NCBI GenBank assembly: GCA_027365145.1
Contig: DAHXOA010000041.1
Coordinates: 1 to 34,783, forward strand
Source of the DNA: Acidimicrobiaceae bacterium
Lineage (GTDB): Bacteria; Actinomycetota; Acidimicrobiia; Acidimicrobiales; RAAP-2
Length of the DNA stretch: 34,783 bases
Direction: 5' to 3'
Program-made: the position numbers and the translations under genes
The notes under the pieces: model-generated
What the model was told of the DNA's origin: nothing
The model's database searches: none
What the model saw: the letters and a program-made list of their open reading frames with translations, nothing else
Shown: positions 20,828 through 24,041 of the stretch, in pieces
How positions within the stretch are numbered: the stretch's first letter is position 1
How the letters are laid out: every line of letters begins with the position of its first letter

Positions 20828-21865
20828 TCAGGCAGGCGTCGGGTCCGCCGTCACGGCGGCCGCCACATCCCGGACAAGCCCGCTGACCGCCAAGTCGTGG
20901 GCCACGGTGATGGCGTTGACCACGGCCGTCGCCGACGACGAGCCGTGGCTGATGACGCATACCCCGTCGACACCGAGCAACATGGCCCCCCCGGTCCCCT
21001 CGGGGTCGAGCGCGCCCGCCAGCGGGAGCAGGTGGGGCAGGATCTTCTCCGCCGCCTCGCGGACGTCGTCCCTGGCGAGCACGGCGCCGAGCGCGGCCAC
21101 GAGGAAGCCCATCGATCCTTCCATCGTCTTCAGGGCCACGTTCCCCGTGAACCCGTCGGTGACGACGACGTCCACCACCCCGTGGAAGAAGTCCCTCCCC
21201 TCCACGTTGCCGGTGAACTCCAGGCCCGGACCCCCTGCGCCGGACGCCAGCATGGCGTGAGCCTCCTTCACGAGCGGCGTGCCCTTCGACTTCTCCTCCC
21301 CGATGGACAACAGCGCCACGTGGGGACGGGCCGTCCCGTACCGGCACCGAGCGAACACGGCACCCATCCGTGCGAACTGGACGAGCATCTGGGGGGTGCA
21401 CTCGGCGTTCGCCCCGGAGTCGAGGAGCACGGTGGGCGGGCGGTCGCCACCGGGATTGGGGATCGGCGTGGCGATCGCCGGACGGATGACCCCGGGGAGC
21501 CGTCCCATCCGCAGCAGCGCCGACGCCATGGCCGCGCCCGTGTTCCCCGCCGACACCATGGCGAGAGCACGGCCGTCCCGGACGGCCTCGGCCGCCCGCA
21601 CCAGCGAGGAGTCCTTCTTCCGGCGGACGCCCTGGGCCGGGTCGTCGTCCATGCCGATGACCTCGCCGGCGTGGATCTCGGGAAGGCCCCCGGTATCGCC
21701 CATGTCGCCCGGCCGACCCACGAGGACCACGTCGATCCCTCGCTCATCGCGGGCGCGTCGCGCCCCGCCGACGATCTCACCGGGTGCCCGGTCCCCGCCC
21801 ATCGCGTCCACAGCCACGGGGAGGGCGGCGAGCGCCGCTCCCTCGGGCCGGTCGTGGCGCGCCAC
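20828..21865 (-). CDS. plsX: Phosphate acyltransferase PlsX
   Basis: PlsX converts acyl-ACP to acyl-phosphate for phospholipid synthesis. Family motifs are 'VAVDAMGGDRAPGEIVGGA', 'SAGNTGAAMASALLRMGRL', 'GNVEGRDFFHGVVDVVVTDGFTGNVALKTMEG' in two overlapping parts, and 'GGAMLLGVDGVCVISHGSS'. I chose the GTG at 21865, whose first base is shared with the last base of the rpmF stop (TAGTG); the ORF-track extension to 21955 lies inside rpmF. This gives 345 aa, the normal size. The ACP gene it works with is 2 kb away on the same strand. It converges on the acyl-CoA dehydrogenase with a 41-nt gap that shows no clear terminator. Confidence 0.96.
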   Translation of the reverse strand: MARHDRPEGAALAALPVAVDAMGGDRAPGEIVGGARRARDERGIDVVLVGRPGDMGDTGGLPEIHAGEVIGMDDDPAQGVRRKKDSSLVRAAEAVRDGRALAMVSAGNTGAAMASALLRMGRLPGVIRPAIATPIPNPGGDRPPTVLLDSGANAECTPQMLVQFARMGAVFARCRYGTARPHVALLSIGEEKSKGTPLVKEAHAMLASGAGGPGLEFTGNVEGRDFFHGVVDVVVTDGFTGNVALKTMEGSMGFLVAALGAVLARDDVREAAEKILPHLLPLAGALDPEGTGGAMLLGVDGVCVISHGSSSATAVVNAITVAHDLAVSGLVRDVAAAVTADPTPA

Positions 21866-22044
21866 TAGTCGACGTCGATCGCCTGCCTGCCCTTGTACCA
21901 GCCGCACTGGGGGCAGACGACGTGTGGGAGCTTGGCCGCCGTACACTGCGGGCACACCGAGCGGGCCGGGGTGCGCAGCACCCAGTTGGACGCCCGGCGG
22001 CTCCGGCTCTTCGCCTTCGAGGTCTTCTTCTTCGGGACGGCCAT
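21865..22044 (-). CDS. rpmF: 50S ribosomal protein L32 (missing from the ORF track)
   Basis: A 59-aa protein below the ORF-track cutoff, read directly from the minus strand. It begins 'MAVPKKKTSKAKSRSRRASN', the standard L32 N-terminus, and has two CPQC knuckles ('SVCPQCTAAKLPHVVCPQCG') for a zinc ribbon, so it is the zinc-binding form. The ATG at 22044 has GGAG 9 nt upstream. The stop shares one base with the plsX GTG start, the usual rpmF-plsX coupling. yceD normally precedes it directly, but here a secreted-protein gene intervenes and rpmF has its own 231-nt upstream region. Confidence 0.96.
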   Translation of the reverse strand: MAVPKKKTSKAKSRSRRASNWVLRTPARSVCPQCTAAKLPHVVCPQCGWYKGRQAIDVD

Positions 22045-22066
22045 GTTCGATTACTCCACGTTCGTA

Positions 22067-22084
22067 GGTCCCGCCGGCGGGACC
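22067..22084. promoter_or_regulatory. Perfect 18-bp palindrome upstream of rpmF
   Basis: GGTCCCGCCGGCGGGACC is an exact palindrome 22 nt before the rpmF start codon, overlapping the expected 5' leader. It could be an operator for a dimeric regulator or an RNA stem near the ribosome-binding site. No known binding motif is recognised. Confidence 0.55.
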
Positions 22085-22136
22085 GTTCGTCAGGTCCGCA
22101 CCACCCAGCGGGATGCCGGGCCGGCGGGGAAGCAGT

Positions 22137-22157
22137 GTAGGGGCACCGCGCCCCTAC
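22137..22157 (-). promoter_or_regulatory. Hairpin in the rpmF upstream region
   Basis: GTAGGGGC, loop ACCGC, GCCCCTAC form a perfect 8-bp stem between the secreted-protein gene and rpmF. It may be a second terminator stem or part of a long rpmF leader. Confidence 0.4.
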
Positions 22158-22190
22158 CCGCCACCACGGGTCACGCCAGCGTACACGCGT

Positions 22191-22220
22191 CGGATCCCGG
22201 GGCAAGAGCCCCGGGATCCG
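22191..22220 (-). terminator. Strong hairpin after the secreted-protein gene
   Basis: CGGATCCCGGGGC, loop AAGA, GCCCCGGGATCCG form a perfect 13-bp stem 55 nt after the stop codon of the secreted-protein gene. It is the strongest simple stem-loop I noticed in the window. It lacks a T-tract, as is common for high-GC actinobacterial terminators. It would separate the upstream genes from rpmF-plsX. Confidence 0.65.
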
Positions 22221-22275
22221 GCCGCTCCCCATGCGGCTCCTCCGGGAGCAGGCGTGGGTCAGGATCCGGCCGCCA

Positions 22276-23322
22276 CTACCACCACGGGCCGAATTGGTTC
22301 CCGCCGGGTGCTTCGTTCCCGGTCACCGTGAACGGCGCCGTACCACTGGCCGTGCCGTCCGTGGCCACGATGGGGTTCGATCCGTCGCTGTCGGTCCGGC
22401 TGACCGTGACGAACCCTCCGAGCGACCCGTTGGCATCCACGCGGGCGGACCCCGTCGACGCCGGCGACCCGCTCGTGAAGGACAAGGACGCGTCCGACGC
22501 CAGCGTGGTCCAATTGAGCCCGATGACGGCGGCGGTCGTCCCGGCGGTGCCGGTGGTCGGGACGCTGTAGACGGTGTCGGTACCACCCGAAAGGCCGTTC
22601 ACCAGGGTCGTGTCGAACCTCAGGGAGGAGGCACCCGGGGCGAGCGGGAGTCCGGCGAGGGAGTTGGTGAGCACGGCCACGAGGCCGGGGCAGGTGGCAG
22701 AGGGCTGCACGGCGGGCACGGCGAAGTCGTCGGCCACGAGCACGCCCGACTGCACGCCACCCAGCAGGCCGGTGATGGGCGTGCCCGTCAGGTCGCCGCT
22801 CGTCCCCGTGGTCAGCTGGGCCGTGATCGGCCCGATGGTGCACGAGAACGGCCCGACCTGGGCGGTGGTCTCCAGCGACGCCGAGATCGTCGACGTGATC
22901 GCCCCGTTGGCGTGGATCTGGGCTGTCCCGGCCAACGCGCTCGTGGCCGTGAAGGTCGCCGGCAGCCCGACACCGAGCGGACCGAGGCTCAGGCGAGCCG
23001 TATTCGGTTGGATCTGCACGTCGGACCGGGGGACGTCGATCGCCAACGGGTTCGCCAGGGATCCGTCGATGGACAGGGTGCCCGTCGACACGCCGGTGAT
23101 CCCGGTGGCGGCGATGTGGGAGCCGATCGTCGCTGATCCGTTGGTCAGCGCGATGGCGATCGGGATCTGGATCGACGACGGCGCTGCCGATGCCGCCGGC
23201 ATCCCAAACAGCCCGGTCCCAAAGACGCCGAGGGTCGTGACCGCACCGACGGCGGTTGCCACTGCCATCCGGACGGCCCGGACCCTGGAGCGGGTGGTTC
23301 GAGTTCGTAGGTGGGAGGTCAT
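22276..23322 (-). CDS. Secreted Ser/Thr/Gly-rich protein of unknown function
   Basis: I do not recognise this 348-aa protein. The N-terminus is a classic export signal: Arg-rich 'RTRTTRSRVRAVRM', a hydrophobic core 'AVATAVGAVTTLGVFGTGLF', and a likely cleavage after 'AASA'. The mature part is rich in Ser, Thr, Gly and Ala, predicted mostly beta, with only two Cys (FSCTIG and SATCPGL) that could form one disulfide. It ends with 'NQFGPWW'. No membrane anchor or LPXTG motif is seen. The ORF-track TTG at 23358 is part of a candidate -35 box, so I chose the ATG at 23322. It lies between yceD and rpmF and has its own promoter-like and terminator-like elements, which suggests an insertion. The overlapping frame 22259-23341 is a shadow. 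Confidence 0.8.
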   Translation of the reverse strand: MTSHLRTRTTRSRVRAVRMAVATAVGAVTTLGVFGTGLFGMPAASAAPSSIQIPIAIALTNGSATIGSHIAATGITGVSTGTLSIDGSLANPLAIDVPRSDVQIQPNTARLSLGPLGVGLPATFTATSALAGTAQIHANGAITSTISASLETTAQVGPFSCTIGPITAQLTTGTSGDLTGTPITGLLGGVQSGVLVADDFAVPAVQPSATCPGLVAVLTNSLAGLPLAPGASSLRFDTTLVNGLSGGTDTVYSVPTTGTAGTTAAVIGLNWTTLASDASLSFTSGSPASTGSARVDANGSLGGFVTVSRTDSDGSNPIVATDGTASGTAPFTVTGNEAPGGNQFGPWW

Positions 23323-23329
23323 GGAACGA

Positions 23330-23358
23330 ACGGTGAAGCACGAACCGGGAGATGTCAA
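23330..23358 (-). promoter_or_regulatory. Candidate promoter of the secreted-protein gene
   Basis: On the minus strand TTGACA (23358-23353) is a consensus -35 box. After 17 nt comes CACCGT (23335-23330), a weak -10 that keeps A2 and T6. Seven nt later is the ATG, so a leaderless transcript is expected. No Shine-Dalgarno sequence is seen before this ATG, which agrees. Confidence 0.45.
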
Positions 23359-23428
23359 GACATCCGACCCGTGATCACGTCAGATACGCGACCCCCGTCC
23401 CACCCCGGACTACCCCTCTGGACTGGGA

Positions 23429-23460
23429 CAATATTATTTCTTACTGGTCAGTAGATAGAT
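23429..23460. promoter_or_regulatory. AT-rich island with inverted repeat TACTG-GT-CAGTA
   Basis: About 32 bp of clearly AT-rich sequence (ACAATATTATTTCTTACT) in an otherwise very GC-rich window. It contains TACTGGTCAGTA (23442-23453), an inverted repeat with 5-bp arms and a 2-bp centre. It lies after the yceD stop and about 70 bp upstream of the candidate -35 box of the secreted-protein gene. This could be an operator for a TetR- or MarR-type regulator, or an upstream activating region. Confidence 0.45.
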
Positions 23461-23498
23461 CCGAACCCCGCCGAAACCCGCCACGGAGCGTAGATCCA

Positions 23499-24041
23499 TC
23501 ACCGCGTTCCGCTGTCTTCGGAGCCGGCCGACCCGGCGGAGAGCGCGTCCAGGGCAGCCCAGCGCGGGTCGTGCACGGGCGCACACCCACAGGGCGCCGC
23601 GTTGCGATCGGCCCCGCACCCCGGGCAGAGCCCGCGGCAGTCGTCGGCGCACAGGGGAGCGAGCGGGAGGGCGAGCATGACCGCGTCGCGCACCATCGGC
23701 TCCAGGTCGACCAGGTCCCCGTCGAGGGGGTAGGCGTCCTCGTCCTCCCCGGTGCAGTCACCTTCGACGAACCGCTCGCGTACCTCGACATGGACCGAGC
23801 CGTCGACCCGACCACCGCAGCGCCGGCACTCTGCCCGCCACGGCGCGTCGATGAACCCGGTGACGGCGATCCCCCCCGGGTAGGCCGAGAGCACCAGCTC
23901 GACGGCCACGTCGGCCCCACCCGGCACCTCGGCGCCCAGGACGGCCAGGTCGTCCACCGGGCCCTGGGTGGAGACCTGCCGGACGCCGGACGTCCGACGG
24001 CGCAGGGATGCGATCGGGACGGCGAAGCGGGGCGGTGGCAC
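23499..24041 (-). CDS. yceD: YceD/DUF177 family protein
   Basis: DUF177 protein, 180 aa, linked to ribosome or rRNA accumulation and almost always encoded just before rpmF. Features are 'CRRCGG' near residue 73, 'ERFVEGDCTGEDEDAYPLDG', 'DLEPMVRDAVMLALPLAPLC' and the C-terminal cysteine cluster 'CRGLCPGCGADRNAAPCGC'. It starts with GTG at 24041 without a visible Shine-Dalgarno sequence, 23 nt after the sepIVA stop. The unusual point is its downstream neighbour: a secreted-protein gene instead of rpmF. Confidence 0.92.
   Translation of the reverse strand: MPPPRFAVPIASLRRRTSGVRQVSTQGPVDDLAVLGAEVPGGADVAVELVLSAYPGGIAVTGFIDAPWRAECRRCGGRVDGSVHVEVRERFVEGDCTGEDEDAYPLDGDLVDLEPMVRDAVMLALPLAPLCADDCRGLCPGCGADRNAAPCGCAPVHDPRWAALDALSAGSAGSEDSGTR

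Follow-up and report, generated by a model that had tools for sequence, protein, structure and literature searches.

A self-contained gene for an exported, probably cell-surface two-domain protein in the yceD-rpmF junction of an Acidimicrobiaceae bacterium

The yceD-rpmF junction in the analyzed DNA of an Acidimicrobiaceae bacterium (the window: 34,783 nt of contig DAHXOA010000041.1) is interrupted by the gene of a 348-aa exported protein, a real, selected insertion that is so far known from one genus only. The interpretation favored here, with somewhat more confidence than doubt, is that a self-contained gene, whose exported product probably resides at the cell surface, was inserted at this site in the ancestor of the genus, and that this product has a structural or binding role in the cell envelope. 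Pairing of yceD and rpmF shows remarkable conservation across bacteria (PMC5049393). The window contains the flanking genes of the standard YceD (DUF177)-rpmF-plsX cluster (PMC5049393) in their standard order, with yceD at 23499–24041 and rpmF, encoding L32, at 21865–22044, both on the reverse strand, and with plsX next after rpmF. It differs from that cluster in that yceD and rpmF are parted by 1,454 nt holding the gene of a secreted protein, complete with promoter and hairpin. The coding sequence (22279–23322, reverse strand) starts with ATG and ends at a TAG at 22276–22278.

Lengths of the yceD-rpmF gap were compared in 58 genomes, 56 from the family and order outside the genus and two from the genus itself. 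Outside the genus, the gap did not exceed 178 nt in 53 of the 56 genomes and was shorter than 30 nt in many of them, which bears out the proposal of an earlier note on this DNA that the gene was inserted between yceD and rpmF. Within the sampled family and order, the sole other carrier of the gene at this site was the sister genome G001, an ‘Actinomycetes bacterium’ MAG of the same genus (contig JAKADK010000039.1), in which the copy has the same flanks and the gap measures approximately 971 nt. The lack of the gene at the junction in every other sampled member of the family and order argues against an ancestral gene present there throughout the class. Gaps of 959–1224 nt occurred in three distant members of the order, with contents unrelated to the window gene; these insertions of approximately 1 kb lie at L088, L089, and L091. 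Transposase remnants were found in the junction of G059, a 157-aa open reading frame of no known kind in that of G056, and an open reading frame for a membrane-anchored protein, on the opposite strand, in that of G053. The junction had been counted among the best-conserved bacterial gene pairs, but it is not as inviolable as that view implies: rpmF has a promoter-like −10 element of its own in the nearest relatives, and unrelated insertions occupy the junction in three distant genomes. The insertion in the window is still unusual.

In the nine nearest relatives (L009–L017), TAG(A/G)(A/C)T or TACCAT was found exactly 9 nt before the rpmF ATG, a position that suggests that rpmF has its own, near-leaderless promoter in these genomes. 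In some of them, this TANNNT element overlaps the yceD stop codon. With such an element in front of rpmF, an insertion into the junction would plausibly be tolerable. In the genus under study (window and G001), the TANNNT element 9 nt before rpmF is gone; a Shine-Dalgarno-like GTGGAG precedes the gene and a TACACT lies approximately 90 nt upstream, both kept in G001. The rpmF leader of the window (22050–22145, reverse strand) also contains a conserved inverted repeat, TAGGGG...CCCCTA, which overlaps TACACT in this genus, as well as GGTCCCGCCGGCGGGACC, a near-perfect hairpin that immediately precedes the Shine-Dalgarno region. Neither was seen in the short-gap relatives, and a possible function of these repeats is leader control of L32.

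Full-length homologues with approximately 58% identity were detected in G003 and G022, both from a sister genus. In these genomes, the gene occupies another chromosomal site, between genes for an R2-like oxidase and a DEDDh-type exonuclease (both named by sequence reading), and the yceD-rpmF gaps themselves are short (L016 and L012). A more divergent full-length relative in a genome of another family (G174) adjoins a sigma-factor gene. Searches with a four-sequence profile yielded matches in 15 of 397 genomes of the order and, within the family, in 6 of 172, two of which matched the Ig-like domain only. Clear homologues were present in 4 of the 172 family genomes, a patchy distribution. A match in G009 (L005) overlaps the frame of an ABC-transporter ATPase and was rejected as chance. 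The protein had been described as an orphan, a label that does not hold, since homologues and domain relatives occur in approximately 4% of the sampled genomes of the order.

Because high-GC DNA yields many long spurious open reading frames, a chance frame in high-GC intergenic DNA, not expressed separately, was considered as an explanation. Its probability is negligible: full-length homologues with 58% identity in another genus, together with codon constraint and a signal peptide, already refute it. Over the 186 codons that remain in the G001 copy, which align in frame with the window gene at 83% identity, dN/dS ranged from 0.10 (YN00) to 0.19 (NG86). The corresponding values for yceD were 0.15–0.32, so that constraint on the 348-aa gene is no weaker, and within genera the gene family gave values of 0.10–0.25. 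These ratios (approximately 0.1–0.2) point to strong purifying selection on the coding sequence.

The G001 copy lacks approximately the first 160 codons through an in-frame deletion that removed the start codon and signal peptide. Since no ATG is left and the promoter box itself supplies, with its TTG, the earliest in-frame start listed, the copy in that assembly is probably a pseudogene, or else an assembly error; unless the latter applies, at least one assembled species can do without the gene. The deletion and the patchy occurrence in the family would suit a degenerating passenger, a chance insertion of little use that is being lost as in G001. However, dN/dS of the shared part is comparable with or below that of yceD, the window copy is intact and retains its promoter and hairpin, and the deletion could have arisen recently or result from faulty assembly. 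Loss of a useless passenger was therefore judged unlikely. A moron-like origin, in which a mobile element or phage carried the gene and an integrase or transposase moved it, was rated lower still. Homologues do reside at three different chromosomal sites, and a transposase remnant occurs in the same junction in G059, but the window insertion showed no transposase, integrase, or flanking terminal repeats and no convincing target-site repeats around it. Moreover, the viral contigs, phages, and plasmids that were searched contained no relatives, and GC and GC3 of the gene are in line with those of its neighbors.

Self-contained insertion, the preferred interpretation, is further supported by the region upstream of the gene. 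The TTGACA promoter proposed earlier is present at 23353–23358, as part of a putative promoter at 23330–23358 (reverse strand) in which a 17-nt spacer separates it from CACCGT (23330–23335), 7 nt from the ATG. The copies at the other locus in G003 and G022 are preceded by TTGAC(C/G)-N17-CACCGT-N7-ATG, with spacing identical to that in the window, while the remaining upstream DNA could hardly be aligned (overall similarity modest; shuffle P 0.005 and 0.04). Because TTGAC-N18-CACCGT-N7-ATG recurs at both chromosomal sites, in different genera, a leaderless-type promoter of its own probably came with the gene. As a −10 element, CACCGT is weak, sharing only A and the last T with TANNNT, and a promoter scan called nothing at TTGACA/CACCGT. 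The leaderless layout is common in actinobacteria; in Mycobacterium tuberculosis, it accounts for 26% of the genes that have a primary start site, with a TANNNT −10 element centered 7–12 bp upstream (PMC3898074). With a −10 element just 7 nt from the ATG, transcription would begin at or next to the ATG, and the mRNA of the 348-aa gene would then be leaderless. No Shine-Dalgarno sequence was found upstream of the ATG.

Just upstream of TTGACA, a palindrome, CGTGATCACG (23370–23379), is kept in G001 and absent from the G003 and G022 copies; it is a possible regulator site. Further upstream, an AT-rich island had been interpreted as operator-like. The island exists (approximately 23428–23455), but ordinary sequence takes its place in the sister genome G001, which makes an operator unlikely.

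Downstream of the stop codon, the window contains a perfect, GC-rich 13-bp hairpin (22191–22220, reverse strand), the probable 3′ end of the transcript. G001 retains this hairpin, in which a T-A pair has been replaced by C-G through a compensatory change; the G003 and G022 copies are likewise followed by strong hairpins, but these are unrelated in sequence. The G174 copy is followed by a hairpin with a T tract (identified by reading). While the 13-bp stem of the terminator described in the earlier note is thus confirmed, it has no T tract and a consensus terminator scan did not call it. Because hairpins in both this genus and the sister genus lack a T tract, terminator function is a conditional assignment. 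An own promoter common to copies elsewhere and a strong hairpin after every copy are consistent with the self-contained cassette envisaged in that note. A search for RNA families gave nothing above threshold in the window and one sub-threshold chance match near the insertion.

The predicted protein carries an Ala-rich signal peptide (residues 1–46; 23185–23322, reverse strand), with a hydropathy peak at residues 16–39, a predicted ASA-A cleavage site (residue 46/47), and the same layout in homologues. Hydropathy analysis revealed no second transmembrane segment in the 348 residues. The signal peptide and AXA site, read from sequence and hydropathy rather than from a dedicated predictor, are those expected for Sec export and agree with the exported, Ser/Thr-rich product predicted previously. 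The mature part of 302 aa consists for 26% of Ser and Thr and for 26% of Ala and Gly; it contains no lysine, 5 Arg, 15 acidic residues, and only two cysteines.

Alignment divided the mature protein into two domains, the first of which has relatives in other architectures. This N-terminal domain (residues 48–243, approximately 195 aa; 22594–23181, reverse strand) is marked by the motif TTGTSGxLTGTPxTG...DFAVPAVQ...CPGL...N.LxGLP. Cys161 and Cys211 are invariant among its aligned relatives, and the domain may well be β-rich and disulfide-linked. The C-terminal domain (residues 242–348; 22279–22599, reverse strand) has an Ig-like pattern, P.SG..GT...V.G..W/F ... F...G ... V...G, as in IPT/TIG (PF01833), neocarzinostatin (PF00960), and Glucodextran_B (PF09136). 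The best weak matches of its relatives were 0.014 for TIG, 0.049 for neocarzinostatin, and 1.1e-5 for Glucodextran_B. In contrast to those families, the window protein ends in an unusual aromatic tail (GNQFGPWW; WPFGW in the G003 and G022 copies, no tail in G174) and matches none of them; its C-terminal domain gave no Pfam gathering-score match to IPT/TIG or neocarzinostatin. An Ig-like fold, as yet unproven, is suggested by the sequence pattern. AlphaFold2 with a two-row alignment returned pLDDT values of 30–35. In Pfam and NCBIfam searches, no family scored above its curated cut-off for the 348-aa protein or for members of the N-terminal domain, and a PDB search with profiles of the two domains gave only matches with E > 0.2, none of them credible. 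These searches support the earlier claim that no known family matches. The protein is a member of an unnamed family with an undescribed domain. Two other secreted proteins (L047 and L049) combine this Ig-like domain with a duplicated module that comes after it, GxWxxxPLxxVxNxxVExLxDAT...FxxxxPYY...NVWRAPxEFPGxLVxHNGDQGPQ.VYGTW; no Pfam family matched the L049 protein.

All matches of the N-terminal domain profile fell inside the order except for one genome elsewhere in the class. The domain stands before three SLH domains in L053, before PKD domains in L057, L059, and L060, and after a He_PIG domain in L041. SLH, PKD, and He_PIG are extracellular modules, and fusion of the N-terminal domain to them makes a surface role the best inference; the 348-aa protein likely acts at the cell surface. 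This domain, with its two cysteines and the TTGTSG / GxFAVP motif, also links it to surface proteins from the order and class that contain SLH or PKD domains (L053, L057, L059, and L060), but the window protein is small and lacks SLH, PKD, or a Thr-rich linker. A Pfam search detected no SLH domain in the protein itself, which also has no LPXTG with a C-terminal transmembrane segment: it ends in GGNQFGPWW without a C-terminal hydrophobic stretch. Lacking these anchors, it could be freely secreted.

A secreted antagonist, bacteriocin-like or carrying a ligand in the manner of neocarzinostatin, would be compatible with the patchy distribution and the weak neocarzinostatin resemblance of the C-terminal domain. 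However, what the C-terminal domain resembles is the Ig fold at large; no immunity gene or biosynthetic cluster adjoins any copy, and large surface proteins with SLH and PKD modules also contain the N-terminal domain. An antagonistic function was consequently considered very improbable. On a speculative and rather doubtful view, many surface proteins would use the N-terminal domain as a wall- or glycan-binding module, as yet undescribed and largely confined to the order; the window protein would be its minimal stand-alone form, encoded on a portable leaderless promoter cassette able to settle in housekeeping junctions.

Under the favored interpretation of an envelope protein gene acquired by the genus ancestor, a stand-alone gene would have entered the yceD-rpmF junction with its own promoter. 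It would be transcribed as a monocistronic, probably leaderless mRNA with its 3′ end at the strong hairpin, and its product would lose the signal peptide upon Sec export. The mature protein, composed of a disulfide-linked, β-rich N-terminal domain and an Ig-like C-terminal domain, would then act in or on the cell envelope in a structural or binding capacity, for example as an adhesin- or S-layer-associated protein. Lineage-specific secreted proteins are common, and this finding alone answers no long-standing question. It defines an unnamed extracellular domain common to small secreted proteins and SLH- or PKD-bearing surface proteins of one actinobacterial order. It also shows that the yceD-rpmF junction can be broken, plausibly because rpmF can possess a promoter of its own, a view backed by the three further insertions within the order.
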